Shown here: in pieces, positions 741 to 45,899 of the stretch
Numbering within the stretch: the first letter of the stretch is position 1
Layout of the letters: every line of letters begins with the position of its first letter
Source of the DNA: Ochrobactrum sp. Marseille-Q0166
GTDB lineage: Bacteria; Pseudomonadota; Alphaproteobacteria; Rhizobiales; Rhizobiaceae
Length of the DNA: 64,000 nucleotides
NCBI RefSeq assembly: GCF_014397025.1
Contig: NZ_JACJUO010000002.1
Location: 1,229,501-1,293,500, forward strand
Direction: 5' to 3'
The notes under the pieces: generated by a model
The model's input: the letters and a program-made list of their open reading frames with translations, nothing else
What the model was told of the DNA's origin: nothing
Databases searched by the model: none
Translations under genes and position numbers: made by a program

Positions 741-982
741 TGGAAAAAGCACTAGCAGGACTGGTTACGGTTGCCGCCATCCTTTTCTTTGCACCGCTGA
801 TCGGCGTTCTATTTGGCGCGTTTTCGGGATGGGTGGTCGGTTTCTTCTTCACTGAAACTGTGCAGGCATTCTTCACCGCTTTGGGCGTCAATGCTGGTCA
901 CTTGTCGCTTTGGCAGATTGGCGCTGCGCTTGGATTCATCGGTGGGTTTCTCCGACCCACTGTATTTCGCGCAAAGTCTTAA
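740..982 (+). CDS. Small phage inner-membrane protein
   Basis: An 80-residue protein with two hydrophobic stretches (about residues 5-40 and 55-72), the first rich in Gly and Phe, joined by a short loop. It has no signal-peptidase site. Its ATG overlaps the preceding stop (taatg), so it is coupled to that gene. The function is unknown. Early location argues against a classical holin; membrane anchoring of replication or superinfection exclusion are guesses only. Confidence 0.6.
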   Translation: MEKALAGLVTVAAILFFAPLIGVLFGAFSGWVVGFFFTETVQAFFTALGVNAGHLSLWQIGAALGFIGGFLRPTVFRAKS

Positions 983-1015
983 TCTGCGCACTAACCACAC
1001 CACCAACACGAGGAA
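969..1015 (+). promoter_or_regulatory. Conserved leader/RBS element, weak hairpin copy
   Basis: The near-constant tail ACCACCAACACGAGGA (1000-1015) ends 7 bases before the DUF669 ATG. A short inverted repeat GCGCA (969-973) / TGCGC (985-989) lies upstream. This is the weakest hairpin of the leader family described in the findings; the tail itself is clear. Confidence 0.6.
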
Positions 1016-1022
1016 CTAACAA

Positions 1023-1583
1023 ATGGCAAGACTTGGAACGGCGTTTGACGCCACCCAACACGACACGACGCAGTCGGACTATTCCGAGCTGCCGAACGGC
1101 ACATACAAGATGGAAATCGAGGCGGCCGACGTGGTGCCGACTTCGACCGGTAGCGGCACTATCCTGAAAACAACGTTGAAGGTGCTCGAGCCCGCTGAAT
1201 ACGCCGAACGCAAGCTGTTCAACAACTACAACATCGAGAACAAAAACCCGACCGCGCAAGAAATTGGTCAAAGGCAATTTGCCAGCCTTTGCCGCGCTCT
1301 CGAGATGTCCTCGGTAGAAGACACCGACGACCTGCTCTTTAAGTCGTTCACGGTGCGAGTGGCCCTCGGCAAACCTTCAAAGGACGGGCAGTATCCCGCG
1401 CGCGCCGAGATCAAGAAATACTTCTTCCCTGACGAAAACAACGTGCCTGAGCCGAGCATTGACGCTCAACAGCCTGCGGCGGCAGCGCAGCGATCAGCCA
1501 ATGACAACCGCCCTGCAGCGGCAAACAACAACAAGCCATCGCAGCCTGCAAAAGCTGCGGGAAGCCGTCCTTGGTCTAAGTAA
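1023..1583 (+). CDS. DUF669 family single-stranded DNA-binding protein
   Basis: A 186-residue protein with the family's pattern: a GTYKMEIEAAD strand near residue 27, then LFNNYNIENKN and QRQFASLC segments, an SFTVRVALG strand and a RAEIKKYF strand near the end of the folded core. A low-complexity tail rich in Ala, Asn and Gln ends in PWSK; acidic or flexible tails are usual for phage SSBs. Placed with the Sak4-like gene, it probably coats ssDNA in the same recombination/replication pathway. It is translated from the conserved AACACGAGGA leader. Confidence 0.8.
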   Translation: MARLGTAFDATQHDTTQSDYSELPNGTYKMEIEAADVVPTSTGSGTILKTTLKVLEPAEYAERKLFNNYNIENKNPTAQEIGQRQFASLCRALEMSSVEDTDDLLFKSFTVRVALGKPSKDGQYPARAEIKKYFFPDENNVPEPSIDAQQPAAAAQRSANDNRPAAANNNKPSQPAKAAGSRPWSK

Positions 1584-1593
1584 GCACCAAAAA

Positions 1594-1641
1594 GCTGCCG
1601 GTGCTTTCGCGCCGGTAGCCCACCGAACCGAACACGAGGAG
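1594..1641 (+). promoter_or_regulatory. Conserved leader element: hairpin plus AACACGAGGAG
   Basis: An 8-bp stem, GCTGCCGG (1594-1601) with CCGGTAGC (1612-1619) including one G-U pair, precedes ACCGAACCGAACACGAGGAG (1622-1641), which ends 6 bases before the next ATG. A competing 5-bp stem (GCACC 1584-1588 / GGTGC 1600-1604) overlaps it, so two alternative folds are possible. Confidence 0.7.
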
Positions 1642-1647
1642 TTTTGT

Positions 1648-2451: not shown

Positions 2452-2461
2452 AACCAACCAC

Positions 2462-2500
2462 GGCGCGGTCACCAGCCGCGCCTACCACCAACACGAGGAG
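2462..2500 (+). promoter_or_regulatory. Conserved leader element: hairpin plus AACACGAGGAG
   Basis: A perfect 7-bp stem, GGCGCGG (2462-2468) with CCGCGCC (2476-2482), closes a TCACCAG loop. It is followed by ACCACCAACACGAGGAG (2484-2500), 6 bases before the clamp ATG. Confidence 0.8.
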
Positions 2501-2506
2501 AAACCC

Positions 2507-3565
2507 ATGCGGGTAACGCTTGATCGAGCGCAGCTTGCGCACGCCTTGTCGACCGTGACAAAGGCAGTTGAGGCCAGAACGACAACTCCAATTCTTGGCA
2601 ACGTGCTTTTGTCCGTGGACAAAGGAAAGCTGGGCATCACCGGCACTAATCTTGATCTGGAAATCAGCACCAGCTTGCCGGTTCTGGACAGCCAGGAAGG
2701 TACTGTCACGGTTGCAGGTAAGCTACTTCTGGATATTACCAAGCGCGCCACAAGTGACGTTAACTTGGAAGCCGACGGCAATCATCTGGTCGTTAAATCT
2801 GGAAAGAGCCGTTTCAAACTAGATACATTGCCAGCTGCTGACTTCCCTTCCTTCAGTCACGGAAGCTTCGACACCACAATCGAAGTCGATCTGGCATCAC
2901 TCGTGCAGGAAGTGCAGTTCGCTGTCAGCACCGAAGAAACCCGGTATTACCTCTGCGGCGTCTTTCTGGAAGCAAAGGACGGCCATATCGTTGCCACGGC
3001 GACAGACGGGCATCGTCTCGCATCGACACGCATTGAGCAGGAAGCCACGTTTGCTCCGGTCATTCTGCCTAACAAGTTGCTCTCATTGCTGCCGACCGGC
3101 GTCGCGTCAGTTTCGCTGTCGTCAAACAAGGTGATGGTCGAGAGCGGCTCGACTGTCATCGTGTCGAAACTCGTCGACGGCACATATCCGGATTACGAGC
3201 GCGTTATTCCAAAGCCATCGGAGCGTGTAGCTACACTATCGGCAAAAGCACTACGCGAAGCTGTCGGCCGAACGTCGGTTATCGCAAGCGAACGCGGTAA
3301 GGCCGTTCGGTTCTCATTTGCTTCGGATGCTCTGACACTGAATGTCGCTAATCCAGATCGCGGCGATGCAACTGAGGAAATGGAGGTCAACTTCAGCAGC
3401 GAGCCGCTGACGATCGGTTTCAATGGTCAGTATGTCACCGACCTTATGGCGGCGTTTGGTGCGGATGAAATCACGATGTCGATGGCCGACTCCGGCTCGC
3501 CTGCGCTGATCACGTCGGCCGGTCAGCCGGGATATAGGTGCGTAATTATGCCGATGCGGGTTTAG
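2507..3565 (+). CDS. dnaN: Phage-encoded DNA polymerase III beta sliding clamp
   Basis: A 352-residue homologue of the bacterial beta clamp (hosts usually about 370). Diagnostic stretches are TTPILGNVLL near residue 27, ATATDGHRLA near 165, GTYPDYERVIP near 225 and the C-terminal VIMPMRV, which in the family forms part of the hydrophobic cleft that binds client peptides. The clamp tethers polymerase to DNA. A phage copy suggests that this phage builds its own processivity platform or diverts the host Pol III and client proteins. No phage DNA polymerase is visible in the window, so host Pol III is the likely partner. Translation uses the hairpin leader. Confidence 0.93.
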   Translation: MRVTLDRAQLAHALSTVTKAVEARTTTPILGNVLLSVDKGKLGITGTNLDLEISTSLPVLDSQEGTVTVAGKLLLDITKRATSDVNLEADGNHLVVKSGKSRFKLDTLPAADFPSFSHGSFDTTIEVDLASLVQEVQFAVSTEETRYYLCGVFLEAKDGHIVATATDGHRLASTRIEQEATFAPVILPNKLLSLLPTGVASVSLSSNKVMVESGSTVIVSKLVDGTYPDYERVIPKPSERVATLSAKALREAVGRTSVIASERGKAVRFSFASDALTLNVANPDRGDATEEMEVNFSSEPLTIGFNGQYVTDLMAAFGADEITMSMADSGSPALITSAGQPGYRCVIMPMRV

Positions 3566-3568
3566 ACC

Positions 3569-5126: not shown

Positions 5127-6884
5127 ATGCTAACCTTACGAAACTACCAGTCAGAAGCAATAGACGCCGTTTTCGACTATTGGCAAGAGGAGGCAGGTAA
5201 TCCGCTTGTTGATCTTGCGACCGGCTGCGGCAAGTCGTTGGTTATGGCGTCACTTATCCAGCGCCTTGTCGAGGGCTGGCCTGATATGCGCGTGATGGTC
5301 GTTACGCACGTCGCGGAACTGATCGAACAGAATTATCTGGAATTGCTGGGCGTCTGGCCATTCGCGCCTGCAGGTATCTATTCAGCTGGCCTTGGCCGTC
5401 GTGACGCTCGCAGTCAGATCGTGTTTGCTGGCATTCAGACTGTTCATAATAAGGCGCAGCAAATCGGTCACGTCGACGTGCTTATGGTCGACGAGTGCCA
5501 CCTCATCCCGGTCAACAGCAACACGATGTATCGCAAGTTCATTGACGCGCTGCTTGAGGTTAATCCGGATATGAAAATCCTCGGACTGACTGCCACGCCT
5601 TATCGGTTGGATAGCGGTCGATTAGATGAAGGCGCAGATCGCCTGTTTGACCAGATCGTCTACACATACGGCGTTGCTGACGGGATCCGTGATGGCTTCC
5701 TTGCTCCGCTAACGAGCAAGCCAACCGCTACAGAATACGACGTCAAAGGCGTAGGAAGGCTCGGGGGCGACTACAAGCAGCGCGCGCTAGAGGAAGCGAT
5801 TAACCGAACCGACCTCAATGATGCTGTGGTTTCTGAGATCATTGCAAAGGGCACTGATCGTCGCTCCTGGCTTTGTTTCTGTGCTGGCGTAAAAGCTGCA
5901 CTGGACGTGCGCGACGTATTCAGATCACGCGGCATTACATGTGAAGCCGTAACGGGCGATACGCCGAAGGAAGAACGCCGCCGCATACTAGAGGACTTCA
6001 AAGCGTACCGCATCCAGTGTGTGACGAACAACTCAGTTCTTACCACAGGATTCAATCATAAGGGCGTTGATTTAATTGCATTTATGCGCCCAACCCTGTC
6101 ATTGAGTTTGTACGTACAGATGGCCGGCCGTGGCACTCGTCCGCTCTACAAGGCAGGTGCGCCACTAGATACGGTTGAGGAGCGGCTTGCTGCTATCTCG
6201 GCAGGACCAAAGAAGAATTGCCTGGTACTCGACTTCGCGAAACTCGTCGACCGGCATGGCCCTGTCGACATGGTCGAGCCGAAAGCGCCAAGCGCTGGCA
6301 CTGGCGAGCCGCCAATCAAGATCTGCCCAACCGTACCTGACGGCAATGGGGCGGTCGGTTGCGGTGAGAAGGTGCACATCTCGCTGATGAAGTGTCCATG
6401 CTGCGGCTATGACTTCCCTCCTAACGAGGACGAGAAGCTAACCCGACAAGCCGCTGACGTTCCGATTGTCAGCACTGCCGAGGCAGAATGGCGCAAGGTG
6501 ACCGGCCGGACGTTTCATTTCCACGAAGGTAAGGGCGACAAGCCACCGTCGGTCAAGTGCAGCTACATCGCTGGCTATACGCAGATCAATGAATGGCTTT
6601 GCCCTCAGCATACTGGTTTCGCACAAACCAAGGCGCATCGATGGTGGACGCAGCACGGAGGCCAGCGGCCGTTTCCAAAGACAGTCATGGAATGGCTTGA
6701 GCGTCAGCGCGAGTTGCTTACCACCGACGAAATAAGCGTCGTTCCGAATGGTAAATATTGGAATGTGAAAGACGTGCGGGCAGGCCTTAGTCTTGAAGCA
6801 GACAATGACAACGCTCCGGAGCCTGCGAACGACAATGTGTCGGTAGGCCTTTCGGAGATGCTAGACGACGAAATACCGTTCTAA
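5127..6884 (+). CDS. SF2 DEAD/DEAH-type phage helicase
   Basis: A 585-residue helicase. In order: a Q-like NYQSEAIDAV at the N-terminus, Walker A DLATGCGKS near residue 30, Walker B VDECHLIP near 130, motif III LTATPYRL near 155, and the C-terminal RecA domain with TTGFNHKGVDLI and QMAGRGTRP (motif VI). A Cys-rich patch (KCPCCGYDFP) follows, then a tail ending LDDEIPF. That acidic/aromatic end could dock on SSB- or clamp-like partners. It likely unwinds DNA for replication or recombination. Its ribosome-binding site overlaps the start region of the divergent membrane gene. Confidence 0.9.
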   Translation: MLTLRNYQSEAIDAVFDYWQEEAGNPLVDLATGCGKSLVMASLIQRLVEGWPDMRVMVVTHVAELIEQNYLELLGVWPFAPAGIYSAGLGRRDARSQIVFAGIQTVHNKAQQIGHVDVLMVDECHLIPVNSNTMYRKFIDALLEVNPDMKILGLTATPYRLDSGRLDEGADRLFDQIVYTYGVADGIRDGFLAPLTSKPTATEYDVKGVGRLGGDYKQRALEEAINRTDLNDAVVSEIIAKGTDRRSWLCFCAGVKAALDVRDVFRSRGITCEAVTGDTPKEERRRILEDFKAYRIQCVTNNSVLTTGFNHKGVDLIAFMRPTLSLSLYVQMAGRGTRPLYKAGAPLDTVEERLAAISAGPKKNCLVLDFAKLVDRHGPVDMVEPKAPSAGTGEPPIKICPTVPDGNGAVGCGEKVHISLMKCPCCGYDFPPNEDEKLTRQAADVPIVSTAEAEWRKVTGRTFHFHEGKGDKPPSVKCSYIAGYTQINEWLCPQHTGFAQTKAHRWWTQHGGQRPFPKTVMEWLERQRELLTTDEISVVPNGKYWNVKDVRAGLSLEADNDNAPEPANDNVSVGLSEMLDDEIPF

Positions 6885-7326: not shown

Positions 7327-7369
7327 GTGAATTCTCCTAATGAAATCTAGACGTTAATGTCGGTATACA

Positions 7370-7395
7370 AATGCGGAAGGGCTTAAAAAGGTTCC
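7370..7395 (-). promoter_or_regulatory. Near-match sigma-EcfG promoter
   Basis: On the minus strand GGAAC (7395-7391) is followed after 17 bases by CATT (7373-7370), one base off the alphaproteobacterial general-stress consensus GGAAC-N16/17-CGTT. It lies about 45 bases upstream of the PRC-barrel start. The -10 mismatch keeps confidence low. Confidence 0.4.
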
Positions 7396-7463
7396 AAAGA
7401 TAATTCTAAAATTTTGCCGATGATGCGTTGCACGACCACCCATTAACACACCATTTATTATAG

Positions 7464-7498
7464 TGCCGCACCATCGGCATTACCAACCACACGAGGAG
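7464..7498 (+). promoter_or_regulatory. Conserved leader element: hairpin plus CACACGAGGAG
   Basis: Stem TGCCG (7464-7468) / CGGCA (7475-7479) with loop CACCAT, then ACCAACCACACGAGGAG (7482-7498), 6 bases before the ATG at 7505. Confidence 0.75.
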
Positions 7499-7504
7499 CA
7501 TCAA

Positions 7505-8254
7505 ATGAATAATGCAGAAACTTACGATCCGTATAACGCCAGAGGGATGGGCCACAACAACCCGCCGACCTCTGCATATGAAGAGATCAAGCAGGAAATC
7601 GAAGAACTGTTCGACGAGGCGAAAAACTTCGCGGACGGCGAAGCCATCGACAATCAGGCTCTCGCCGACGCTGTGACCGAGCTCCATGACAAGTTGCATG
7701 AGGCTGGAAAGCGCGCCGAAGAAGTTCGAAAAGAAGAGGCTAAGCCGCACGACGACGCCAAAACTGAAATCCAGGCGCGTTACAACAAGCTGATCGGCAA
7801 TACTAAGACATCAGGCAAAGGCAAGGTCGTGCTTGGCAAGGAAGTGCTTCAAGGGCTACTGACTCCATGGCGCAATAAGGTTGCTGCTGAAAAGGAAGCG
7901 GCTGCTCGGCGGGCAAGAGAAGAAGCTGACCACGTCATTCGTGAAGCGCATGAAGCTATGCAAGCAAGCAAGGGCAATCTGGAAGCACGCGAGCAGGCAG
8001 AGGAACTGGTCAAAGAAGCGAAACAGGCCGACCGTTGGGCGAAGCGTGAAGACAAGGCAGCAACGACTGGCACTGGCCTTCGTTCGGTATGGCATTGCGA
8101 TCTGGTCGACGAAGGCGTTGCGCTTGATTGGGCATACGGCCGTGCGCCAGAGCGTTTCAAAGCTGTTGTACAGGCAATGGCCGAAGAAACCGTGCGCGCC
8201 GGTATGCGGCAGGTGCCAGGCTTCAATGTGCGTGAGGAAAGGGTGGCGCGGTAA
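7505..8254 (+). CDS. Coiled-coil phage protein of the early operon
   Basis: A 249-residue protein. The frame is open 42 bases upstream, but this ATG follows the conserved GAGGAG leader. The N-terminus carries GMGHNNPP; the middle (about residues 25-190) is almost all charged helix (AEEVRKEEAKPHDDAKTEI, EAAARRAREEAD), a long coiled coil. The C-terminal domain (GLRSVWHCDLVDEGVALDWA ... VRAGMRQVPGFNV) resembles a module seen in proteins near phage recombinases and SSBs. The role is unknown; a structural or scaffolding part of the replication complex is plausible. Confidence 0.75.
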   Translation: MNNAETYDPYNARGMGHNNPPTSAYEEIKQEIEELFDEAKNFADGEAIDNQALADAVTELHDKLHEAGKRAEEVRKEEAKPHDDAKTEIQARYNKLIGNTKTSGKGKVVLGKEVLQGLLTPWRNKVAAEKEAAARRAREEADHVIREAHEAMQASKGNLEAREQAEELVKEAKQADRWAKREDKAATTGTGLRSVWHCDLVDEGVALDWAYGRAPERFKAVVQAMAEETVRAGMRQVPGFNVREERVAR

Positions 8255-8995
8255 CTAGGTTGAGTCAGTTTTTTGTTCGATAAATGGGTAATCTCGCAAG
8301 ACCAATCGTAACAGAATGCCGGATCTAATTGCCTCTTCTTTTAGCTCCTTCAATGGTATTGGGTGGCTTTGATCGATCTGAAATGTTGCGTCGTCAGATA
8401 GGTTTTGTGAGATATACCTTAAAAGATAGGCCCAAACTAAGCAATGGGCTTTCGCTTTACTGTAATCTAACAATGAATAGGAACTATTTACAAGTAGTGT
8501 CTGAGACGCGCGATAGTAATAATACGCTTTTTTGGAGAGATCAACGTTGATTACGCTAAGCTGGGCGGATGAAGTAGCTTTCAGGTTGAACATTTTTGTT
8601 GTCGAGTTGTAATTAACACCGTAAGTGCGGCGTGTATGGTTTTGGTGCTTATTTAGATCAGATATCAGATCATAAAACTCGGAGGAAACATTTGCGCAGC
8701 TAATGATCGCTGCTTGTTTGCGTCGCTTGTTTTCGGTTTGCTCCGATGCTCTAACTTGTTCTCGAGCGCTTACCAACACAAAGACCCCAGCTCCTAGAGC
8801 TAAGGACCCGCCAATCAATGTTTGATAAGGTTCAACCCACTTAAGTAAAAGTATCCATCTAGCGCCTTCAAAATAGGCACTGAAACAAGCGCCACTCAGA
8901 AACATTCCGCATGTGCTCTCATAGTGCCATGCAACAAATGCCAGCAGGGCCCATGTAGATGCAATGCCGATAGCCCAATACTTCAACTTTTCCAT
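8255..8995 (-). CDS. Second minus-strand membrane protein in early operon
   Basis: A 246-residue protein with a hydrophobic helix at residues 6-24, a Cys-containing loop (CGMFLSGACF), a second helix near 58-78, then a basic stretch (REQVRASEQTENKRRKQAA) and a cytoplasmic helical domain of about 150 residues. It is AT-rich, antisense to the operon, and its stop abuts that of the preceding gene. The plan matches the gene at 4492-5112: two helices, KQQ/REQ coiled link, helical domain. No family recognised. Likely a moron; membrane-linked exclusion or abortive infection is inference. Confidence 0.7.
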   Translation of the reverse strand: MEKLKYWAIGIASTWALLAFVAWHYESTCGMFLSGACFSAYFEGARWILLLKWVEPYQTLIGGSLALGAGVFVLVSAREQVRASEQTENKRRKQAAIISCANVSSEFYDLISDLNKHQNHTRRTYGVNYNSTTKMFNLKATSSAQLSVINVDLSKKAYYYYRASQTLLVNSSYSLLDYSKAKAHCLVWAYLLRYISQNLSDDATFQIDQSHPIPLKELKEEAIRSGILLRLVLRDYPFIEQKTDST

Positions 8996-9042: not shown

Positions 9043-9083
9043 CCCGCCAGCCACCAACTGGCGGGTTACCACAGCACGAGGAG
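9043..9083 (+). promoter_or_regulatory. Conserved leader element: hairpin plus GCACGAGGAG
   Basis: A perfect 8-bp stem, CCCGCCAG (9043-9050) / CTGGCGGG (9058-9065), with loop CCACCAA, then ACCACAGCACGAGGAG (9068-9083), 5 bases before the ATG. The best-formed member of the family together with the copy at 45860. Confidence 0.85.
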
Positions 9084-9088: not shown

Positions 9089-11377
9089 ATGTCTTACGCA
9101 GAGTTGTTGGCGCGTAAAAGCGCTGATGCACCACTGCGCGGCCTGTCGTCTATTCCGTCACTACATGAAGGCATGTTTGCCTATCAGCGTGACGTGACCG
9201 AGTTTCTACTCGGTGTAGGCGGGGGTGCCGCGTTCCTGGATACAGGACTTGGGAAAAGCTTTGTCGCATTAGAATGGGCAAGAGTAGTTTCAGAGCAGAT
9301 CGGAAAGCCCGTTTTGATGCTGGCACCGCTAGCAGTTGCGCCGCAACACGTTCGTGAGGCGCAGAAATTCGGATACGAAGACGCGCGAGTTGTTCGTTCG
9401 CAAGACGATGTTGGACCGGGTATCAACGTCACTAACTACGCCAAAATAGATCATTTCGACCCCAGCGAGTTTGCAGGTGTGGTGCTTGATGAGTCCAGCG
9501 TCATCAAGAATTTCACCGGCCAGACAACCCGTAAAATGATTGCGATGTGGAAAGACACACCATTTCGTTTGGCATGCACCGCAACGCCGGCACCGAATGA
9601 CCACATGGAGTTGGGCCAGCATTCGCAGTTCTTGGGCGTAATGAATTCCAACGAGATGCTAACTCGGTGGTTTATCGCCGATCAAACGAATATGGGCCGC
9701 TATCGTCTCAAGGGACACGCCGTAAAACCATATTGGAGTTGGGTTGCGAGTTGGGCCAGATGCATTTCAAAGCCATCAGATCTCGGTTATTCCGACGATG
9801 GTTTCGGACTGCCACCTTTGGAAACATTTCGACACGAAATCAGGGCGGACTTGAGTGTCGACGCGGGAGAAATGTTGTTTCGCATTCCGGATACTAGCGC
9901 AACAGCCATTCATAAAGAAAAGCGCCTAACTGCCAACGCACGAGCTGAGGCAATCGCGGAGCAGGTCAATTCAGAGCGCTCCGAGCCTTGGGTTGTGTGG
10001 TGCGACACTGATTATGAAGCCGATGCTTTGACAAGCCGTATTCCTGATGCAGTCGAGGTTCGGGGATCGATGACGGACAAGGTAAAAGAAGATCGATTGG
10101 TTGGGTTCAGCGAAGGAAATATCCGCGTAATCGTCAGTAAGCCGTCAATAGCTGGTTTTGGCTTAAATTGGCAACACTGCGCTCGAATGGCATTTGTCGG
10201 ACTGTCGTTCAGCTACGAGGCATATTACCAGGCCGTGCGTCGCTGCTACAGATTTGGGCAGAAACGACCAGTTTATGTGCATATTGCGCTAGCAGATACC
10301 GAACGAGCGATATGGGACACAATCAATCGCAAAAGCGGCGATCACGCAAATGAAGCGCGAGATGTACTCAGCGATGCGTCGAGCCCATCAGAAACGCCAA
10401 GTCAAAATCAACTATCACCCAACTACGCCTGTAAACTTGCCCGATTGGGTGAAGGGAGCTTCTGTATGACCTATGTCCTAGACCAAGCAGCCGGTGACAA
10501 ATGGGCGGCTTACAATGCAGATTGCGTGCCATTCACACAGGGACTGCCTGATGCGTCTATAGATTTCAGTGTTTACTCCCCGCCTTTCTCTTCGCTCTAC
10601 ATTTATTCGGAGAGCGTTGCAGACATGGGAAATTGCGCGACGGACGATGAGTTCTTTGAGCAATACCGTTACTTGGTGCGCGAAAAATTCCGCGTAACTA
10701 GGCCGGGACGCCTCACTGCAATCCACGTCAAAGACCTAGTATATTACCAGAATAGCAGTGAACGTGGCACAGCAGGACTGCGCCCGTTTTCGGATGACTG
10801 CACTCGCCTTCACATTGAGGAAGGTTGGGATTTTCATTCGCGGATCACAATCTGGCGCGATCCAGTGCGGGAAATGCAAAAAACAAAAGCTCATGGGCTT
10901 CTTTGGAAAACACTTAGAGCTGACAGCACGTTTAGTCGCATGGGTATGCCTGAGTACCTGCTCGTTTTTCGGAAGTGGGCGAAAGATGGCGAAGAAGTTA
11001 AACCAGTAACCCACACTAAGGAGAGTTTTCCAGTGACGGACTGGCAGGATCATGCATCGCCAGTATGGAACTTTAGCAAGCAGGATTTGCCCGAGACTGA
11101 TGTTCTGAATGTTAAGGTTGCCAGATCGGACAAGGACGAAAAGCACCTTTGCCCCATGCCTCTAAACATCACAAAGCGCGAATTGCGTATGTGGTCAAAT
11201 GCAGGCGACACCGTTTTCTCGCCGTTTATGGGAATTGGATCTGAAGGATACGTTTCTCTGCAAAATAACCGCCGCTTTATCGGAACAGAATTAAATCCAA
11301 ACTACTTCAAACAGGCCGTGAAAAATCTAGGCGACGCCGCAGCTGTTGGCGAGGTGCCAAAGCCTCTTTGGAGATAA
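9089..11377 (+). CDS. SNF2 helicase / beta-class DNA methyltransferase fusion
   Basis: A 762-residue fusion. Residues 1 to about 440 are a SNF2-type ATPase: Walker A DTGLGKS (51-57), Walker B LDES (133-136), TATPAPND near 170, and a second RecA domain with GFGLNWQHC and QAVRRCYRFGQ. From about residue 460 a DNA amino-methyltransferase follows: YSPPF near 496 (motif IV, variant of (D/N)PPY) and then FMGIGSEG and GTELNPNYF near 712-735 (motif I). The IV-before-I order is the permuted beta class (N6-adenine or N4-cytosine). No restriction gene is adjacent. Likely role: DNA modification coupled to translocation, for example anti-restriction. The target is unknown. Confidence 0.85.
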   Translation: MSYAELLARKSADAPLRGLSSIPSLHEGMFAYQRDVTEFLLGVGGGAAFLDTGLGKSFVALEWARVVSEQIGKPVLMLAPLAVAPQHVREAQKFGYEDARVVRSQDDVGPGINVTNYAKIDHFDPSEFAGVVLDESSVIKNFTGQTTRKMIAMWKDTPFRLACTATPAPNDHMELGQHSQFLGVMNSNEMLTRWFIADQTNMGRYRLKGHAVKPYWSWVASWARCISKPSDLGYSDDGFGLPPLETFRHEIRADLSVDAGEMLFRIPDTSATAIHKEKRLTANARAEAIAEQVNSERSEPWVVWCDTDYEADALTSRIPDAVEVRGSMTDKVKEDRLVGFSEGNIRVIVSKPSIAGFGLNWQHCARMAFVGLSFSYEAYYQAVRRCYRFGQKRPVYVHIALADTERAIWDTINRKSGDHANEARDVLSDASSPSETPSQNQLSPNYACKLARLGEGSFCMTYVLDQAAGDKWAAYNADCVPFTQGLPDASIDFSVYSPPFSSLYIYSESVADMGNCATDDEFFEQYRYLVREKFRVTRPGRLTAIHVKDLVYYQNSSERGTAGLRPFSDDCTRLHIEEGWDFHSRITIWRDPVREMQKTKAHGLLWKTLRADSTFSRMGMPEYLLVFRKWAKDGEEVKPVTHTKESFPVTDWQDHASPVWNFSKQDLPETDVLNVKVARSDKDEKHLCPMPLNITKRELRMWSNAGDTVFSPFMGIGSEGYVSLQNNRRFIGTELNPNYFKQAVKNLGDAAAVGEVPKPLWR

Positions 11378-11397
11378 CGACAACGTCGGGGCTGCAA

Positions 11398-11715
11398 ATG
11401 CAGCCTGACGACATCTGCCACGTCTGCTTCCGTCACTCCGTAGGTCTCGGTGTGCAGGAAAACAAAGAACCGATCCGCTGGCTATGCAAGGAATGCGCTG
11501 ACATTGCCGAGCATATCCGCACACGCCGCAGGCTAGATCCGTACGAACTTCGCGCGCTTGATACCGGAGTTGAGGCGGTTGGGGAGTTTTTGCACTCGAT
11601 ACAGAAAACCGACCTTGCGGAATGCGACGAGCTGGAAGCGCGCATGCTGGTGAAAGCCGCATGGGAAGGGTGTGGACGAGGGATGCGGGAAGCTTTGAAG
11701 GATGCGCCGTTTTAG
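11398..11715 (+). CDS. Small zinc-finger phage protein (DUF6511-like)
   Basis: A 105-residue protein. The ATG follows GGGG; an in-frame TTG at 11368 would overlap the fusion gene. CHVC near the N-terminus and CKEC about 23 residues later form a probable zinc ribbon; the rest is helical. It resembles small alphaproteobacterial phage proteins filed under DUF6511, a tentative match from memory of the Cys spacing. It sits between the methyltransferase and the primase, so a DNA-linked role is likely. Confidence 0.6.
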   Translation: MQPDDICHVCFRHSVGLGVQENKEPIRWLCKECADIAEHIRTRRRLDPYELRALDTGVEAVGEFLHSIQKTDLAECDELEARMLVKAAWEGCGRGMREALKDAPF

Positions 11716-14179: not shown

Positions 14180-15496
14180 ATGGCGGATGGCAACTTTTCT
14201 GGCGCTAAACGTAGCGTTGTGGTTGATGGGTTCACGAATAGTGTTTTGGACCCGAAAGAGCCAATGCTCGGGCCATTGCAAAGCGGCGGCACAATCATTG
14301 CAAATACTGCTCCTGGGTGCTGGGGGCCAATGATAACTCCACGGTTGCGCGGTGGGCATGAGGTGACAAAGCCCGTTTTCATTGAAGGAGCTGAGGTTGG
14401 GGACGGAGTTGTCATTCGTATTCGAGACGTATCGGTCACGTCGTTAGCTACAGCTTCCGGTCATGACACGGTTTCCAATCAGTTTTGCTTGGGTGACCCC
14501 TTTGTAGCCGCACGATGCCCTACCTGTGACGAAGTCTGGCCTGAAACGCACATAGAAGGAGTGGGGCAAGATTCTGTCCGCTGTAATAAGTGTGGAGAGG
14601 CCATAAAGCCGTTCACCATGGAGCACGGTTACACCGTTGTTTTTGATGATACGCAGTCAGTAGGTGTAACACTGCCTCAAGATGCAGCGCGCAAGATCGC
14701 CGAAAATGCTGATCACTATGCATCTCTGCCGGATAACTCGGTGCAGCACTCAATCTTGAATTATGCTCCTTCGGACCTTGTTGGTGCAATCGTTCGAATG
14801 CGTCCATTCTTGGGGCAGCTAGGCACGACTCCGTCTATTGCTATGCCAGACTCACACAATGCAGGTGACTTTGGCTCCTTCCTTGTCGGAGCGCCTCACA
14901 GTTACGCGCTTACTCCAGAACAGCTTCTGGAGCATAAGACCGATGGTCATATGGATATCGACGCTGTTCGTGCAGGTGCGGTTTTAGTTTGTCCTGTAAA
15001 AGTTAAGGGTGCTGGCGTCTATATGGGCGACATGCATGCGTCGCAGGGGGACGGTGAAATCGCTGGTCACACCATGGACGTGGCAGGAAGTGTTACGCTT
15101 CAGGTTGAAGTTCTGAAAAAATATAACAATGACGGACCTGTATTATTTCCACTGCTGGAAGATCTTCCTCCACTGGCCCGTCCATTCACCGAGGAAGAGA
15201 GGCAGAAGGCGTTCAAATTGGCGCAACAATGGGGCGTTGAAAGAGCCGAAGAAGTGGCGCCGATCTCTGTTATTGGAACGGCACAGAATATGAATGCCGC
15301 AATCATCAACGGTTTGGAGCGTGCATCAAAGCTTCTTGGCATGACTGTTGCTGAAGTCCGTAATCGGGCCACAGTGAACGGAGCCATTGAGATTGGGCGC
15401 GACCCAGGTGTAATTCAGGTTACTTTTTTAGCGCCACTGAAGAATCTAGACGCGGCTGGTCTTGGAGACATTGCGCGCAAGCAATACAGCCTCTGA
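14180..15496 (+). CDS. Acetamidase/formamidase family enzyme
   Basis: A 438-residue protein of the FmdA/AmdA family, which hydrolyses formamide or short-chain amides to the acid and ammonia. The clear signature is GDMHASQGDGE near residue 277 with ATVNGAIEIGRDPG later. A zinc-knuckle-like insert (CPTCDEVW ... CNKCGEA) sits near residues 110-150. Length fits the family. AAGGAG precedes the ATG. A strong terminator follows, so it is a self-contained unit between replication and late genes. An amidase of nitrogen metabolism is unexpected in a phage; host-derived cargo is likely. The substrate is not predictable. Confidence 0.88.
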   Translation: MADGNFSGAKRSVVVDGFTNSVLDPKEPMLGPLQSGGTIIANTAPGCWGPMITPRLRGGHEVTKPVFIEGAEVGDGVVIRIRDVSVTSLATASGHDTVSNQFCLGDPFVAARCPTCDEVWPETHIEGVGQDSVRCNKCGEAIKPFTMEHGYTVVFDDTQSVGVTLPQDAARKIAENADHYASLPDNSVQHSILNYAPSDLVGAIVRMRPFLGQLGTTPSIAMPDSHNAGDFGSFLVGAPHSYALTPEQLLEHKTDGHMDIDAVRAGAVLVCPVKVKGAGVYMGDMHASQGDGEIAGHTMDVAGSVTLQVEVLKKYNNDGPVLFPLLEDLPPLARPFTEEERQKAFKLAQQWGVERAEEVAPISVIGTAQNMNAAIINGLERASKLLGMTVAEVRNRATVNGAIEIGRDPGVIQVTFLAPLKNLDAAGLGDIARKQYSL

Positions 15497-15685: not shown

Positions 15686-16819
15686 ATGGACAAAAAGTTC
15701 TCCTTTCTGCATGCAGAAGGCCGGTCGGTCGACGAGATTAAAGCAGTCGATTGGAGTAGAACGCCTTTAGGTGACCCCGCCAACTGGCGACCTACACTAA
15801 AAACCGCTGTTCAGATGATGCTTTCTTCACATTTTCCGAAAGCGATTTGTTGGGGTGCTAATTACATTACACTATTTAATGACGCGTTCCGTCCTATTTT
15901 GGGAAAGAAAGCGGGCTGCATGGGGAAGCCGTTTAGTGAAATATGGGCGGAGGCCTGGTCGGACATCAGCACCATCGCCGATAAGGCGTATGGGGGAGAA
16001 GCTACATTTATCGAGGACTTTCCTCTAGTAATTGATCGTTATGGCTTCCCTGAGCAGTGCTATTTCACGTTTTGCTATAGTCCCATTCGCGATGATGATG
16101 GCAGCGTTGGAGGCTTTATGGATACAGTTGTCGAAAGCACTGGAAAGGTTGAAGCTGAAAAAAATGCGGCAGTATTTAACGCCGAGTTGGCACATCGAAT
16201 TAAAAACAATTTTAGCATCATCAATTCTATTGCGAGTCAAACGTTCGTCCATTCTGACCCCGAAGACCTCAGGGTGTTTGCCGAGCGAATAAGAGCTTTA
16301 AGCAATGCACACGATGTTTTGCGTTTAGGCAAACATTCGAACGGCCACATCAAGCAGCTGATTGCCGGCACATTGGCGGCGCTGGCTATCGAATCGCGTG
16401 TAAAGGTAGACGGTCCTGATATACTTATAGGCCCCAAGGGAGGATCCGCTCTTTCCCTCTTGGTTCATGAGCTCAGCACAAATGCAATTAAGTACGGCGC
16501 GCTCTCTAATAATATCGGCAGTGTCAGTATCGAAATATCTTCGGATTTAGTGGATGGTATTGAAACGCTGGCTTTCAGATGGAGCGAGTTTGGTGGGCCG
16601 CTGGTGGTTCAACCTGATAGAAAGGGGTTCGGTTCGAAACTCATAAGAATGGGGTTAAGTGGAGGCGGCGTCGCTAAGCTTGATTTTTTACCAACGGGAG
16701 TTGTTGCCGAGTTCACCGCGCCTCTTGTTTCTTTGATGGAAGAAAATCGTCATTTGCACGATAGCTATGACAAACGAATACACAACCCGCTGTCACAATC
16801 AAAATACAACCATAGGTAA
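15686..16819 (+). CDS. PAS-domain HWE-family sensor histidine kinase
   Basis: A 377-residue soluble kinase. Residues about 20-150 are a PAS domain (PLGDPANWRPTLKTAV, CYSPIRDDDGSVGGFMDTV). ELAHRIKNNFSIINSIA near 172 is the HWE/HisKA_2 phospho-acceptor box. VHELSTNAIKYGALS near 258 is the N box, FRWSEFGGP holds the family WxE motif, and GFGSKL is a glycine box. No membrane segments, so a cytosolic signal is sensed. HWE kinases often feed the PhyR/EcfG general stress pathway in alphaproteobacteria. A phage copy could tune host stress signalling; that is inference. No partner response regulator is visible. A remnant of a close relative lies at 51.76-52.0 kb. Confidence 0.92.
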   Translation: MDKKFSFLHAEGRSVDEIKAVDWSRTPLGDPANWRPTLKTAVQMMLSSHFPKAICWGANYITLFNDAFRPILGKKAGCMGKPFSEIWAEAWSDISTIADKAYGGEATFIEDFPLVIDRYGFPEQCYFTFCYSPIRDDDGSVGGFMDTVVESTGKVEAEKNAAVFNAELAHRIKNNFSIINSIASQTFVHSDPEDLRVFAERIRALSNAHDVLRLGKHSNGHIKQLIAGTLAALAIESRVKVDGPDILIGPKGGSALSLLVHELSTNAIKYGALSNNIGSVSIEISSDLVDGIETLAFRWSEFGGPLVVQPDRKGFGSKLIRMGLSGGGVAKLDFLPTGVVAEFTAPLVSLMEENRHLHDSYDKRIHNPLSQSKYNHR

Positions 16820-17078: not shown

Positions 17079-17124
17079 TGCCGCTACCAACGGCATGAAT
17101 TACCACCGCAACAAACACGAGGAG
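17079..17124 (+). promoter_or_regulatory. Conserved leader element: hairpin plus AACACGAGGAG
   Basis: Stem TGCCG (17079-17083) / CGGCA (17091-17095) with loop CTACCAA. The tail ACCACCGC (17102-17109) and AACAAACACGAGGAG (17110-17124) ends 5 bases before the VRR-NUC ATG. Confidence 0.8.
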
Positions 17125-17129: not shown

Positions 17130-17660
17130 ATGGCTCGCAACCGCTCACGCGCGCCTGCAGCAAAAACAAAAGCCACGACGCAAACCGTCCGCATCAATGG
17201 CGTTCGAACAATCATCACGACACGAGATGGAAAGGTGACGACAAAAGCGGCCCTGCCTCTGGAATGGGAACTGCAAGCTGCACAGGTTCGGGCATTACGC
17301 AGATTGCCAGAATACGTTCACACAGCGCGAGACGTTCGACCGGGAACATTCACACTGGCTGGAGATCAAAACGCAGCCAAGCGTGGCCCCAAGGCAAGAG
17401 CCGAAGCATTAGCAGCAGGACTGACGCCGGGAGAAGCAGACGTCCGGATATACCTCTACGGTGGCGTACTGAGGCAAATCGAAAACAAGGTCGGCAAGGC
17501 CAAACTCGAACCAAGCCAGATAACCCGCCATCCGTTGCTTGATGCTCTCGGCTTTCCCGTCGTGGTCGTCAGGGCTGTCACCGAAGAAGATGCAGCAGAG
17601 CAGGCAGTCAGGTTGGTTAAAGGCTGGTTGAGTGAAAGCGCGACAAACCAAGCCGCGTAA
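17130..17660 (+). CDS. VRR-NUC-type nuclease
   Basis: A 176-residue protein with a basic N-terminus followed by an OCRE-free VRR-NUC-like core: KRGPKARAEALAAG (about 85), PGEADVRIYLYGG (about 100, acidic metal ligand), IENKVGKAKLEPSQ (about 115, the ExK pair and Q) and VVVVRAVTEEDA. These match the PD-(D/E)XK order D...ExK...Q of stand-alone phage VRR-NUC enzymes, some of which resolve Holliday junctions. It is expressed from a hairpin leader after the inverted-repeat cluster. Branched-DNA resolution before packaging is the likely job. Confidence 0.78.
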   Translation: MARNRSRAPAAKTKATTQTVRINGVRTIITTRDGKVTTKAALPLEWELQAAQVRALRRLPEYVHTARDVRPGTFTLAGDQNAAKRGPKARAEALAAGLTPGEADVRIYLYGGVLRQIENKVGKAKLEPSQITRHPLLDALGFPVVVVRAVTEEDAAEQAVRLVKGWLSESATNQAA

Positions 17661-17663
17661 GTG

Positions 17664-17682
17664 ACGAACCAAACACGAGGAG
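17664..17682 (+). promoter_or_regulatory. Conserved leader/RBS tail AACACGAGGAG
   Basis: ACGAACC and AAACACGAGGAG end 6 bases before the ATG at 17689. Only a doubtful 4-bp stem (CGCG/CGCG) with an ACCAA-containing loop lies upstream, within the previous gene's end. Confidence 0.6.
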
Positions 17683-27790: not shown

Positions 27791-27811
27791 ACCACCCCCA
27801 AAACACGAGGA
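27791..27811 (+). promoter_or_regulatory. Conserved leader/RBS tail before tail-tube gene
   Basis: ACCACCCCC followed by AAAACACGAGGA, 5 bases before the ATG. It is the only copy of the leader tail in the structural operon, and no clear hairpin accompanies it. Confidence 0.55.
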
Positions 27812-27816
27812 CCAAT

Positions 27817-28257
27817 ATGGCCCAAGCTACGACGATCAAGTCGGGCAAGATCCGCGTCTTGCTCGGCAATGACGCCACCCCGACAGTTTACTCCGCACCT
27901 TGCGGTTTTACACAGCGATCAATCACTATCACCAAGGGCCTCGAAGAGGTCAATGTTCCCGACTGCACCGATCCTGATAAGGTCGATTGGGTTGGTCGCG
28001 ACGCAACCAGCCTTTCGATGAGTGTAAGCGGCGAGGGTGTTCTTGCTGCTGAAAGTGTGGATACATGGCTAGATGCTGTTGATAGCATTGATTCAGTGCC
28101 GGTGAAGATTGAATGGGAATTCCCTTTGAAGACGATCACATGGACTGGGTCGATGCATGTCGAAAGCATGGAAGTTGGTGCAACCAACGGCCAGCGTGCC
28201 ACGAACAACGTCAGCCTACAGTCTGACGGCGTTATGGTTCGCGTGGCTACACCATAA
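27817..28257 (+). CDS. Major tail tube protein
   Basis: 146 residues, mostly strands. GKIRVLLGND and ITKGLEEVNVPDC at the N-terminus, SMSVSGEGVLA in the middle and SLQSDGVMVRV at the end are typical of siphovirus tube proteins (TP901-1/lambda gpV class). Polymerises as hexamer rings around the tape measure. The next gene's ATG overlaps its stop. Confidence 0.85.
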   Translation: MAQATTIKSGKIRVLLGNDATPTVYSAPCGFTQRSITITKGLEEVNVPDCTDPDKVDWVGRDATSLSMSVSGEGVLAAESVDTWLDAVDSIDSVPVKIEWEFPLKTITWTGSMHVESMEVGATNGQRATNNVSLQSDGVMVRVATP

Positions 28258-43234: not shown

Positions 43235-43343
43235 AAAAGAATTCCTTTTTAAATAAAAAAGGTTAGGTCATTGCCTGACCTCTAAAGCAAACTTCTTTCA
43301 ACAGTGCCAGTACATCCGTGGTCAAAGGAAAGAAGGATAATAT

Positions 43344-43553: not shown

Positions 43554-43593
43554 AATGAACCCTTTCTTAGCAATAAAGATAGCAGCACGCATT

Positions 43594-43996
43594 TGCGTGA
43601 CGCAAATTGATAACGATTTTTAAAAGGGGGTTCGTTCAGGGCGCGTTGCTAAACGCGCAATAAGCAAAACACATCAAGAAAATATCGATAAATAATGAAT
43701 AAAGATTTATTTTGTTTTTGTCAAATTATATTTATTTTTGTTATTAAGGTGACAATCGTAGTTAGATTTTTTACATGTATTTATTCTTTAATTATTTTAA
43801 AAATTGCGAAAGAATATCTTTGGAAAGTCGGGTAGCTGCGGTATTTGCCACTCAGAGAATTAGGGACTTGCTGCCGTTATTTCGTCGACACACTTGACGC
43901 CCCTTTCACTTCCACCACAATGAAAATTGTGTAAATGTCTCTTGACATGTTGTCTCGAGACCCTTTCCATCCTTCGCGTCGGACAACCAATCCGAC
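43594..43996. other. AT-rich gene-free regulatory interval
   Basis: No gene is supported between the cold-shock gene (minus) and the next plus-strand gene. 43660-43810 is strongly AT-rich, with T-runs. Near the right edge TTGACA (43942-43947) is a possible -35, and GTCTCGAGAC (43952-43961) is a perfect palindrome that could bind a regulator. Divergent promoters for both sides most likely lie here. Confidence 0.45.
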
Positions 43997-44031
43997 TCTG
44001 CCGCCAAGCAGAACAAAACCAACACGAGGAG
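43997..44031 (+). promoter_or_regulatory. Conserved leader element: hairpin plus AACACGAGGAG
   Basis: Stem TCTGC (43997-44001) / GCAGA (44008-44012) with loop CGCCAA, then AAACCAACACGAGGAG (44016-44031), 5 bases before the ATG at 44037. Confidence 0.75.
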
Positions 44032-44036
44032 ACTGT

Positions 44037-44315
44037 ATGTGTGAACAGGCACAGGGCGCGGGTGCGCGCGCAAATACGGGTGGTAACGCCTTTCCTTCAC
44101 CAGACTGGAACGGCGACTGGAAAGGTCCAGAGGCCAGCCATGGCATGACGCTGCGTGATCATTTTGCTGGGCAAGCACTTCCGGCGCTAATCGAAAACGC
44201 CGATCTTTCTATTCTTGACAAGATAGCCAAGGTGCGCAGCGTCTCTATTATGCAGGTTTTTGGCATCATAGCCTGCGAATACGCCGACGCCATGATTGCT
44301 GCCAGAGGACACTAA
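44037..44315 (+). CDS. Small phage hypothetical protein
   Basis: 92 residues; an in-frame ATG lies further upstream, but this start follows the conserved leader. The N-terminus is Gly/Ala-rich (CEQAQGAGARANTGG). The middle MTLRDHFAGQALPALI looks like a known phage-hypothetical motif also found alone in many genomes. Directly abuts the phosphoesterase ATG. Function unknown. Confidence 0.65.
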   Translation: MCEQAQGAGARANTGGNAFPSPDWNGDWKGPEASHGMTLRDHFAGQALPALIENADLSILDKIAKVRSVSIMQVFGIIACEYADAMIAARGH

Positions 44316-45569
44316 ATGCTCTCAAAACAAGAACTATCCCGCCGTGTTGCTGCGTATCAGCAGCACGGCACTATAACAAAGGCCGCTGCGGCTTGTGGCG
44401 TCAAGAAGTCTGCTTTTCACGACAGCATCAAACGCGCGGCTGAGCTTGGCTTGATGGGCCCGAAAGAAACGCTGCCGGGCTATGCAATCAAAAGCCTGAC
44501 CGAGACGCCTAACGGCACATACATGCGCCAGACGAAAGAGGCTGGCCCTGTTTATGAGGCGACTGCCGGTCTGGCGGTGAAAGGCAAGACGACTCTCGTA
44601 AACAGCGAAGGTCGGATCGTTACGCAGCACATCATAGAGCGTGCGGACGCCGACCAACTGCGAGCCGCAATCACGGCCATGGTTGAAGCGCTTAAAGAGG
44701 ATTTGCCCCGTGTTTCGATCATGCCGGCACCGAAGGGATGTCGCGAGGATCTGTTGAATCAGTTCACAATCACTGACAACCATTTCGGAATGATGTCGTG
44801 GCGCGAAGAGACTGGCAGCGATTACGATCTGCGGATTGCCGAGCAGCTATTGCTGGATTGGTTCTCTGCCGCTGTAGCGCAAGCGCCTGACGCTCACACC
44901 GCAATTCTGGCGCAGCTCGGCGACCTTATGCATCACGATGCGCTTGAAAGCGTCACGCCCGCCCACAAGCATGTCCTGGACGCCGACAGCAGGCTTCAAA
45001 AAGTCATTCGTATTGTGATCCGCACAATCAGGCGCATCATTGATATGCTGTTGCAGAAGCACGAGCGCGTTCATGTCGTGATGGCTTCGGGCAATCACGA
45101 CCCGGCCTCATCTGCATGGCTGCGCGAAATGCTGGCCGTTATGTATGAAAACGAGCCGCGCATCACTGTCGATAATTCACCGTCACTCTATTACGCATTC
45201 GAGTGGGGCAGCACGATGCTTGCCTATCATCACGGGCACAAGCGAGGTGTCGCAAATATCGAGGGCACGATTGCTGGCATGTTCCGTGGGATGTTTGGAC
45301 GTTCGCTACAAGCTTATGTGCATATCGGACACAGACACAGCGACGACGCAAGAAAAGGTACTCTGATGTACGTCGAGCAGCATGAAACGCTGGCGGCACC
45401 AGACGCTTATGCAGCTGGCGGCGGCTGGCTGTCGGGCAGATCAGCGAAGCGGATTACCTACAGCAAGCAATTCGGCGAAGTCGGCCGCGACATTCTTCGG
45501 CCCGAGATGGTCGCAGGAAAATATCAGGCTGCGAATGACAATGCGGCAAGCGAGAGGAGGGTGGCTTGA
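44316..45569 (+). CDS. Calcineurin-like metallophosphoesterase with N-terminal HTH
   Basis: 417 residues. Residues 1-50 form a helix-turn-helix (QHGTITKAAAACGVKKSAFH). The phosphoesterase core has TDNHFGM (about 150), LGDLMHHD (about 205), ASGNHDP (about 263) and IGHRHSD (about 340), the D-x-H, GD, GNHD and GHxH metal motifs. A PANDN-like AANDNAA linker is near the C-terminus. DNA binding plus a phosphodiesterase suggests a nucleic-acid substrate, but the target is unknown. Starts directly after the previous stop. Confidence 0.85.
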   Translation: MLSKQELSRRVAAYQQHGTITKAAAACGVKKSAFHDSIKRAAELGLMGPKETLPGYAIKSLTETPNGTYMRQTKEAGPVYEATAGLAVKGKTTLVNSEGRIVTQHIIERADADQLRAAITAMVEALKEDLPRVSIMPAPKGCREDLLNQFTITDNHFGMMSWREETGSDYDLRIAEQLLLDWFSAAVAQAPDAHTAILAQLGDLMHHDALESVTPAHKHVLDADSRLQKVIRIVIRTIRRIIDMLLQKHERVHVVMASGNHDPASSAWLREMLAVMYENEPRITVDNSPSLYYAFEWGSTMLAYHHGHKRGVANIEGTIAGMFRGMFGRSLQAYVHIGHRHSDDARKGTLMYVEQHETLAAPDAYAAGGGWLSGRSAKRITYSKQFGEVGRDILRPEMVAGKYQAANDNAASERRVA

Positions 45570-45853
45570 GAAAAATTGTACGATGGATTCTGACTAGGGC
45601 GGCCAATCTTACTCCGAACGTTACCTATTATGCGAAGTCATGGCCCATGCGAATAAATAACCAATTGGCTGAAGTCGCATCGCAACGTGGAGGCAAGTCA
45701 ACTCCGATGACCGTTGCAGCGATCTCATTATGCTGCGCGATGCATGAAAGTCTTCGCGTCGGTGATGAGGCCACTATAGATCTGACAGGCGTTACAACGG
45801 GCGGATTAGACGTGGGAAGCTTCACTGTAACTCTGAAACGGGTCGCCGCTTAA
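45566..45853 (+). CDS. Small phage hypothetical protein
   Basis: 95 residues, overlapping the phosphoesterase stop by 4 bases. It has a basic N-terminus, a short non-polar stretch (MTVAAISLCCAMHES) and a strand-rich end (TVTLKRVAA). Followed by a hairpin leader for the next gene. Function unknown. Confidence 0.55.
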   Translation: MRKIVRWILTRAANLTPNVTYYAKSWPMRINNQLAEVASQRGGKSTPMTVAAISLCCAMHESLRVGDEATIDLTGVTTGGLDVGSFTVTLKRVAA

Positions 45854-45859
45854 CGACCC

Positions 45860-45899
45860 ACGCCGCCCACCAAGCGGCGTTTCACCACAACATGAGGAG
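45860..45899 (+). promoter_or_regulatory. Conserved leader element: hairpin plus AACATGAGGAG
   Basis: A perfect 7-bp stem, ACGCCGC (45860-45866) / GCGGCGT (45874-45880), with loop CCACCAA identical to the copy at 9051, then ACCACAACATGAGGAG (45884-45899), 5 bases before the ATG at 45905. Confidence 0.85.

Follow-up and report, generated by a model that had tools for sequence, protein, structure and literature searches.

A prophage segment of Ochrobactrum sp. Marseille-Q0166 raises the question of why many of its genes begin behind leaders that share a layout but not a stem sequence. The window, as we call the whole stretch analysed here, comprises 64,000 nucleotides (nt) of contig NZ_JACJUO010000002.1 (positions 1,229,501 to 1,293,500) and, judging by its sequence, is part of a prophage related to Rhizobium phage 16-3. 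An initial annotation, made from the letters alone, had pointed to ten leaders in which a hairpin with a changing stem and a near-constant, ACCA-like loop is followed by a short conserved tail just before the start codon. All ten sites were found where they had been placed. The seven leaders described as having a hairpin (before genes 1648, 2507, 7505, 9089, 17130, 44037 and 45905, named by their first position) fold well when compared with dinucleotide shuffles (fold z from -2.07 to -4.78), and the three described as having a weak stem or none (before genes 1023, 17689 and 27817) fold poorly. The constancy of the loop holds for six of the seven hairpin leaders but fails at gene 1648, which has a TTTC loop, and a CGCCAA loop, also reported, does exist but belongs to the second of two tandem hairpins before gene 44037. 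The leaders are listed below with their fold z and, where obtained, the expectation value (E) given by the covariance model R1 described further on.

1005 to 1015 (+): tail AACACGAGGAA without a strong hairpin, before gene 1023-1583 (DUF669, single-stranded DNA-binding-like); z -1.48.
1594 to 1619 (+): 11-bp hairpin with a TTTC and not an ACCA loop, before gene 1648; tail 1631-1641; z -4.05.
2462 to 2482 (+): hairpin GGCGCGG / TCACCAG / CCGCGCC, before gene 2507-3565 (DNA polymerase processivity clamp); tail 2490-2500; z -3.60; E 2e-13, a near-identical phage leader being among the rows of R1.
7461 to 7482 (+): hairpin bearing a CACCAT loop, upstream of gene 7505-8254 (phage exonuclease family); tail 7488-7498; z -4.63; also matched in the R1 search.
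9043 to 9065 (+): hairpin CCCGCCAG / CCACCAA / CTGGCGGG, before gene 9089-11377 (helicase-methyltransferase); tail 9073-9083; z -4.78; E 5.1e-12.
17079 to 17095 (+): hairpin TGCCG / CTACCAA / CGGCA, before gene 17130-17660 (homolog annotated as VRR-NUC endonuclease in relatives); tail 17114-17124; z -2.07; E 2.9e-9.
17639 to 17682 (+): degenerate leader, a broken GCGCG..CGCG stem around AAACCAA with tail 17672-17682, before gene 17689; weak fold, z -1.22; E 4.4e-4.
27802 to 27812 (+): tail AACACGAGGAC and no hairpin, a tail-like leader on the late gene 27817-28257 (major tail protein); z -0.42.
43978 to 44012 (+): tandem hairpins with loops CAACCAA (43978-43996) and CGCCAA (43997-44012), before gene 44037; tail 44021-44031; z -4.05; E 1.6e-5.
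45840 to 45880 (+): tandem hairpins, with the element as the second (CGCCGC / CCACCAA / GCGGCG, 45860-45880), before gene 45905-46408 (nucleoside 2-deoxyribosyltransferase family); tail AACATGAGGAG at 45889-45899; z -4.44; E 8.2e-10.

In each of the tandem pairs at 43978-44012 and 45840-45880, just one hairpin carries the ACCA loop. A leader similar to the degenerate one of gene 17689 is present in phage contig L114, where its 7-bp stem is unbroken.

The initial annotation regarded changing stems around a constant loop as the mark of a conserved RNA structure, not of plain repeats. The clamp gene was located by its protein in 97 loci and its leaders were read without selection. A hairpin with ACCA in the loop was found in 49 of the 67 distinct clamp leaders, with 11 different inner stems, compared to 0.9% of shuffled leaders. 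Stems differ between the genes of one phage, and at the same gene the stem changes from phage to phage with its pairing kept; the window and phage TM3_3_14B have the clamp-gene loop TCACCAG in common on different stems. An alignment (A1) was made of 13 clamp leaders picked because they pair; of its six stem pairs, five vary at both positions and one at a single position. This alignment is paired by construction, as are 237 sites chosen from the phage sequences, because the selection required an ACCA hairpin of at least five pairs and a ribosome site. In the site-first test, by contrast, ribosome sites were taken without using pairing, and the 3' arms were re-dealt as a control. ACCA occurrences were flanked by at least five pairs in 15 of 126 and 16 of 92 cases, whereas re-dealt arms averaged 0.94 each and reached at most 5 and 4; for the other GGAG sites the counts were 6 of 77 (mean 0.37, at most 2) and 1 of 18 (0.20, at most 2). 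Selection therefore acts on pairing over stem sequence, and the RNA structure of the leader is well supported. Plain repeats were rejected on the same ground, namely stem variation with pairing kept, and so were DNA operators.

More broadly, the repeats might be read in the DNA, as an operator, a promoter or an inverted repeat bound by a protein, as has been considered for the extended start-associated sequences (ESAS) of Cluster K mycobacteriophages. Inverted repeats near gene starts would suit such a site, and sequences resembling TTGACAAATTTGTA lie upstream of a few genes in some phages. However, copies within a genome do not share a conserved repeat sequence, their orientation and start-codon spacing follow the gene, and a sigma70-like pattern occurs within 90 nt upstream at only 7 of 216 sites, and we give a DNA-level site hardly any credence. 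The TTGACAAATTTGTA-like sequence, which in 16-3-like phages precedes the genes starting at 39018 and 47226 of L295 (phage 16-3), 39081 of L298 (AP-16-3), 31236 of L297 and 31796 of L296, may be a repressor-controlled promoter.

The location of the hairpins was examined by choosing them by loop (NYACCAR) and stem (at least five pairs) without the tail, and then scoring GGAG and a start codon downstream. In Ochrobactrum-phage loci (0.59 Mb), where near-identical orthologs are counted separately and three loci (L059, L072 and L113) are also matches of the tail-pattern scan, 39 of 43 distinct NYACCAR hairpins precede GGAG and a start codon, compared to 202 of 4503 among all hairpins with 7-nt loops. 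The corresponding numbers for stretches of four annotated Rhizobium/Sinorhizobium phages are 11 of 14 and 116 of 2149, and ACCA ranks first of the 256 tetramers at that loop position in both phage sets. A set of 80 loci was retrieved through another gene; in it, 27 of 48 ACCA hairpins and 115 of 2784 others are followed by GGAG and a start codon. Stems that do not covary and hits at random positions had been named in the initial annotation as refuting it; the stems do covary, and the hits fall at gene starts.

For genome-wide searches, 44 of the 79 leaders listed in the site-first test were aligned (A2), nine misaligned rows were dropped, and the resulting alignment of 35 leaders (A3) was the source of the covariance model R1, which matches its own rows by construction because it was built from them. 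In the 4.44-Mb genome of the strain, R1 gave seven hits with E<0.01, all in the window, with the next best at E 1.95 (eight hits at E 0.01 or below when the window was searched alone). The tail AACACGAGGAG occurs six times in this genome, always on the (+) strand, five copies lying in the window and the sixth some 3 kb before it, and its reversed control does not occur. In 53 of 76 distant loci, from other alphaproteobacteria (1.03 Mb), R1 had no hit below E 1. At E below 1 the element is thus absent from the rest of the host genome, and the rarity of AACACGAGGAG, together with R1 hits confined to the window and lacking in that other alphaproteobacterial DNA, rules out the reading, raised by the annotation against itself, that the tail is merely the common host ribosome-binding site.

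Among relatives, R1 found 10 to 15 copies in each of the stretches of phages 16-3, AP-16-3, X2_25 and TM3_3_14B. The clamp-bearing phages AmM-1 and RR1-A yielded one hit with E<0.01 (RR1-A, 7e-4), and in the clamp-locus search, which covered 30 of 42 loci, there was no hit at 0.01 in L289 and L291-L294. All 52 loci longer than 19.9 kb, among 80 fetched by their DUF6511 gene, had at least one hit; the 172 hits all lie on the strand of that gene. Across 247 genomes of the family, hits at E 0.001 or below were obtained in 22, seven of which had two or more; across 259 genomes of the order, 14 had hits, and only the genome studied here had more than one. The single hits in these genomes may be due to chance. 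A pattern search of 297 family genomes gave matches in 20, including 9, 14, 10 and 8 copies in four genomes of the same genus, seven matches in G003 that are mostly a tandem repeat, and single matches elsewhere, the reversed control giving one or two scattered matches. The repeat in G003 (G003:C6:59627-61032) consists of six identical 20-mers ending in ACACGAGGAG, spaced by 126 or 252 nt, plus one variant, and is apparently unrelated. A linker pattern gave four matches in 397 genomes of the order and was too strict to be useful; viral contigs carried many copies among the matches listed in the pattern scans. A DNA search of phage records with one leader returned only short matches (E near 4). 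At the Rfam gathering score, the elements were unmatched in the window, in the upstream locus L007 and in the 16-3 and AP-16-3 stretches, in which only one small RNA (window) and a tRNA (L007) were recognised. No description of the hairpin leader was found in a literature search of titles and abstract openings, most subscription journals being outside its scope; the words hairpin and stem-loop were not found in the accessible parts of PMC10460002 (AP-16-3) and PMC5537653 (LM21 prophages), nor the word hairpin in that of PMC5492332 (Ochrobactrum phages).

Which genes carry the leader was counted with hand-entered annotation coordinates of three phages, late genes being taken from two of them and gaps above 700 nt skipped. 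Before early and accessory genes, the tail was found at 13 of 25 gaps of 40-160 nt, 4 of 7 of 11-39 nt, 6 of 12 above 160 nt and 5 of 75 of at most 10 nt, and the ACCA hairpin at 11, 1, 1 and 2 of these, respectively. None of the 31 late genes has the tail and one has an ACCA hairpin; this hairpin count and tail count are the same, one and none, for the 10 late genes with gaps of 40-160 nt. The leader therefore mainly serves independently initiated genes of non-late operons, in agreement with the initial annotation, which had it covering mainly early and accessory genes; the tail before gene 27817 is the one tail-like exception in the window.

The geometry was read from the 237 sites. The loop is exactly 7 nt long in 210, the 3' end of the stem lies 11-19 nt from GGAG in 202, the start codon follows the stem at a median of 26 nt, and the downstream genes fall into 58 protein clusters. 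The linker is 82% A+C with little G. Among the 148 of 216 sites with an assigned upstream open reading frame (ORF), 82 have its stop codon 4-15 nt before the hairpin. Rhizobium-group phages have the same loop with a different tail, typically ACCACCACA followed by AGAGGAGAC. A sub-class, seen at L295 29331-29369, L297 15574-15612 and L298 29477-29515, has a hairpin with a GCCGTGCGC or GCCGTGCGG arm directly on AGAGGAG, and its CACCACA stretch lies 5' and not 3' of the hairpin. GC-rich hairpins after stop codons could also be taken for transcription terminators between genes, but a run of at least four T within 10 nt after the stem occurs at 1 of the 237 sites (at one further site, L295:9422, a T run lies partly within the stem) and the next start codon follows at the median of 26 nt given above. 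Intrinsic terminators were rejected; we see next to no chance that they explain the leader.

Taken in 5' to 3' order, the module consists of an upstream stop codon, often 4-15 nt away, a hairpin of 5-10 bp whose stem can have almost any sequence and whose loop, in most cases of 7 nt, usually includes ACCA, a linker rich in A and C and free of structure, a strong Shine-Dalgarno sequence and the start codon. A ribosome at a stop codon covers about a dozen nucleotides past it, and the 30S subunit covers about 20 nt before a start codon. The hairpin would therefore often fit between the footprints of the ribosome ending the upstream gene and of the 30S subunit starting the next, which suits separate initiation of each gene block, and each block might thereby start on its own. 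A single factor of phage or host origin could bind the constant loop, perhaps together with the ACCA-rich linker, and would set the translation of the early mRNAs as a group. On this sequence evidence, the hairpin leader is probably a cis-acting mRNA module for translation initiation at early and accessory genes of 16-3-like temperate phages.

Structure only is a rival reading, the hairpin being a generic insulator or a 5' stabiliser of mRNA fragments, with loop and linker rich in A and C just to remain unpaired and read by nothing. The low G content of the linker, the often snug position of the hairpin between stop codon and ribosome site, and the replacement of ACCA hairpins by tetraloop hairpins (TTTC, TTCG, GNRA) at some genes all suit such a role. 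On the other hand, stems are replaced at the same gene while the loop is kept, and loops of 5-9 nt that consist entirely of A and C contain ACCA in 11 of 11 and 14 of 15 cases, where we estimate that composition alone would give about a quarter for 7-nt loops. These 25 of 26 loops, together with the lack of the tail in late genes with equal gaps, point to recognition and are hard to explain by structure alone, which we consider rather unlikely. That the loop is read by a factor is plausible. A bolder proposal, which we advance tentatively, is a phage-wide post-transcriptional regulon, in which one phage or host RNA-binding factor would read a YNACCAR heptaloop on almost any stem, at several leaders of each genome, and switch early and accessory translation together, by a code that would predate the divergence of Brucella-group and Rhizobium-group phages and would outlast gene swaps.

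Several observations weigh against the translation module, or against a loop that is read at every copy. The ACCA hairpin was not found in 18 of the 67 clamp leaders; five of these belong to the most distant loci (L289 and L291-L294, 31-48% identity), and the remaining 13 include three with GCCA loops (nine loci) and three with GNRA or other 4-nt loops. Among hairpins of at least six pairs before GAGGA and a start codon, ACCA loops are the commonest without being the majority (16 of 66 distinct hairpins in the Ochrobactrum loci and 23 of 61 in the Rhizobium group), the others being mostly one of a kind and many perhaps due to chance; a further 112 and 49 distinct sites of this type, respectively, have no such hairpin. 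Some leaders use TTTC, TTCG, GNRA or GCCA loops, and other stable loops are kept at some genes: TTTC or TTGC at gene 1648 and its orthologs (those with a strong hairpin have TTTC, TTGC or TAAC), and a TTCG or TTTC hairpin at two genes upstream of the window. Loop and hairpin are thus not essential everywhere. At 14 of the 237 sites, no more than 8 nt separate the hairpin from GGAG, so that an unmelted hairpin would collide with the ribosome. The Fisher tests of the three hairpin-first tables (7e-50, 2e-12 and 6e-24) overstate the evidence because relatives are not independent and related sequences were counted more than once. Finally, no loop-reading factor was found in this analysis.

The reader could also be an RNA, the loops pairing with an antisense RNA that bears a UUGGU loop. 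Seven-nt loops suit kissing complexes, and CTACCAA and CTACCAG presumably resemble the loops of ColE1-type RNA II. Against this, none of the TGGT-loop hairpins of six phages (phage sequences being what was compared, and not the host genome) is common to all except for complements of the element itself, and the elements have no Rfam match; kissing control is accordingly improbable. One such hairpin, AGGCGC/TTGGTCG/GCGCCT, is common to 16-3, AP-16-3 and NV1.1.1 and is the complement of a hairpin with a CGACCAA loop.

As to a protein, one gene of the window offers a lead.

11368 to 11715 (+): small DUF6511, zinc-ribbon-like protein; each of the five named element-bearing phages compared has a relative.

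This protein is only a lead as a candidate trans-acting factor. The element was hit in 10 of 13 genomes with a DUF6511 gene and in 12 of 234 without it, both sets of 247 genomes being taken as identical; this co-occurrence may simply mark the phage clade, as any gene of the clade might.

The initial annotation had offered recombination linkers as an alternative, that is, short shared leaders that promote gene swapping by homologous exchange, a role that has been proposed for the stem-loop cassettes of T4-type phages. Fifteen of 71 stems do precede more than one unrelated gene cluster, and the CGCCAG/CTGGCG stem precedes seven, including different methyltransferase-like genes. Homologous exchange needs sequence identity and not pairing, however, whereas here stems differ within one genome with pairing kept by compensation, and the element is oriented and spaced relative to the start codon. 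The idea stands only for a by-product and not for the main role, in which we find it most improbable. The hairpin at 9043-9065 precedes different unrelated genes in other phages, several of them methyltransferase-like, as if the leader were fixed and the slot after it open to various genes. Genes seem to be exchanged with the leader left in place, as would suit a regulatory element doubling as a junction.

The prophage itself is recognisable by its gene products, among them a DUF669 protein, the clamp, a Cas4-type exonuclease, helicases, a primase, a methyltransferase, a terminase, and capsid and tail proteins. The clamp gene is 90-94% identical to gene 2507 in four named Brucella/Ochrobactrum genomes, and by clamp protein the closest annotated phages are Rhizobium phage 16-3 (46.6%), RHph_X2_25, RHph_TM3_3_14B and AP-16-3 (44.8-44.9%) and NV1.1.1 (40.9%). 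Between the primase and endonuclease genes lie an acetamidase/formamidase-family gene (14180-15496) and an HWE histidine kinase gene (15686-16819), an unusual cargo for a prophage. The prophage starts upstream of the window, where further tails occur on both strands, and the small RNA mentioned above lies in the window.

About -2961 (+): tail, upstream of the window.
About -400 (+): tail, upstream of the window.
About -4592 (-): tail, upstream of the window.
About -5548 (-): tail, upstream of the window.
57950 to 58072 (-): alphaproteobacterial small RNA ar14 (Rfam RF02344).

In the upstream locus L007, a tRNA gene (5467-5538, +) and a nearby leftward ORF of 377 amino acids (7368-8501, -) are possibly the attachment site and the integrase of the prophage.

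The annotation had likened the leaders to the start-associated sequences (SAS) and ESAS of Cluster K mycobacteriophages. The likeness holds for layout (a short conserved tail a few nucleotides before the starts of many non-structural genes, with an inverted repeat at a subset), for gene class, in that the elements are kept at the same gene families, and for rarity in or absence from the host. It does not extend to the sequences. SAS is a 13-bp sequence, GGGATAGGAGCCC, at gene starts, and the window has one match to it with two mismatches where 0.73 are expected. ESAS are imperfect inverted repeats conserved in sequence, the departures from which do not support RNA pairing, so that their authors found little hairpin support, and those of phage Adephagia contain putative SigA-like promoters. 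Here, in contrast, the stems change in sequence but remain paired, the loop hardly varies, and few sites have promoter-like sequences (the 7 of 216 above). The hairpin leader is thus not a member of the Cluster K SAS/ESAS.

Other known systems share single traits with it. The PeSL cassettes of T4-type phages are variable stem-loops between genes, tied to gene swapping, and include early promoters; by this definition they differ from the leader, in which the combination of early promoter and stem-loop is again limited to those seven sites. In the coat-protein operator hairpins of RNA phages and in lambdoid boxB, the loop is read by a protein, with one or few copies per genome and unrelated loops; we know of no protein reader of this kind for the hairpin leader. 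T4 RegA and RegB, like the proposed factor, treat a group of early mRNAs alike, at the region where the ribosome binds; according to PMC3014915, however, RegA sites are rich in A and U, lack structure and overlap the AUG or lie next to it, and RegB cleaves within the Shine-Dalgarno sequence.

Start-associated elements that recur across the genomes of temperate phages were described in 2011, and an article of 2024 (PMC11373665) still calls their role unclear. The hairpin leader is a separate case in another bacterial class, with selection at the RNA level. It reaches beyond the window, as the same design recurs in 16-3-like phages, temperate viruses of soil bacteria, with clamp proteins that are 41-47% identical, and its variable stem and constant loop before early genes suggest a shared switch for making those proteins. 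Because the classical model phage 16-3 of Sinorhizobium meliloti carries the element, both its mechanism and its reader are directly testable, and work on it could uncover a new module of RNA recognition and a compact element of translation control that does not depend on the stem.

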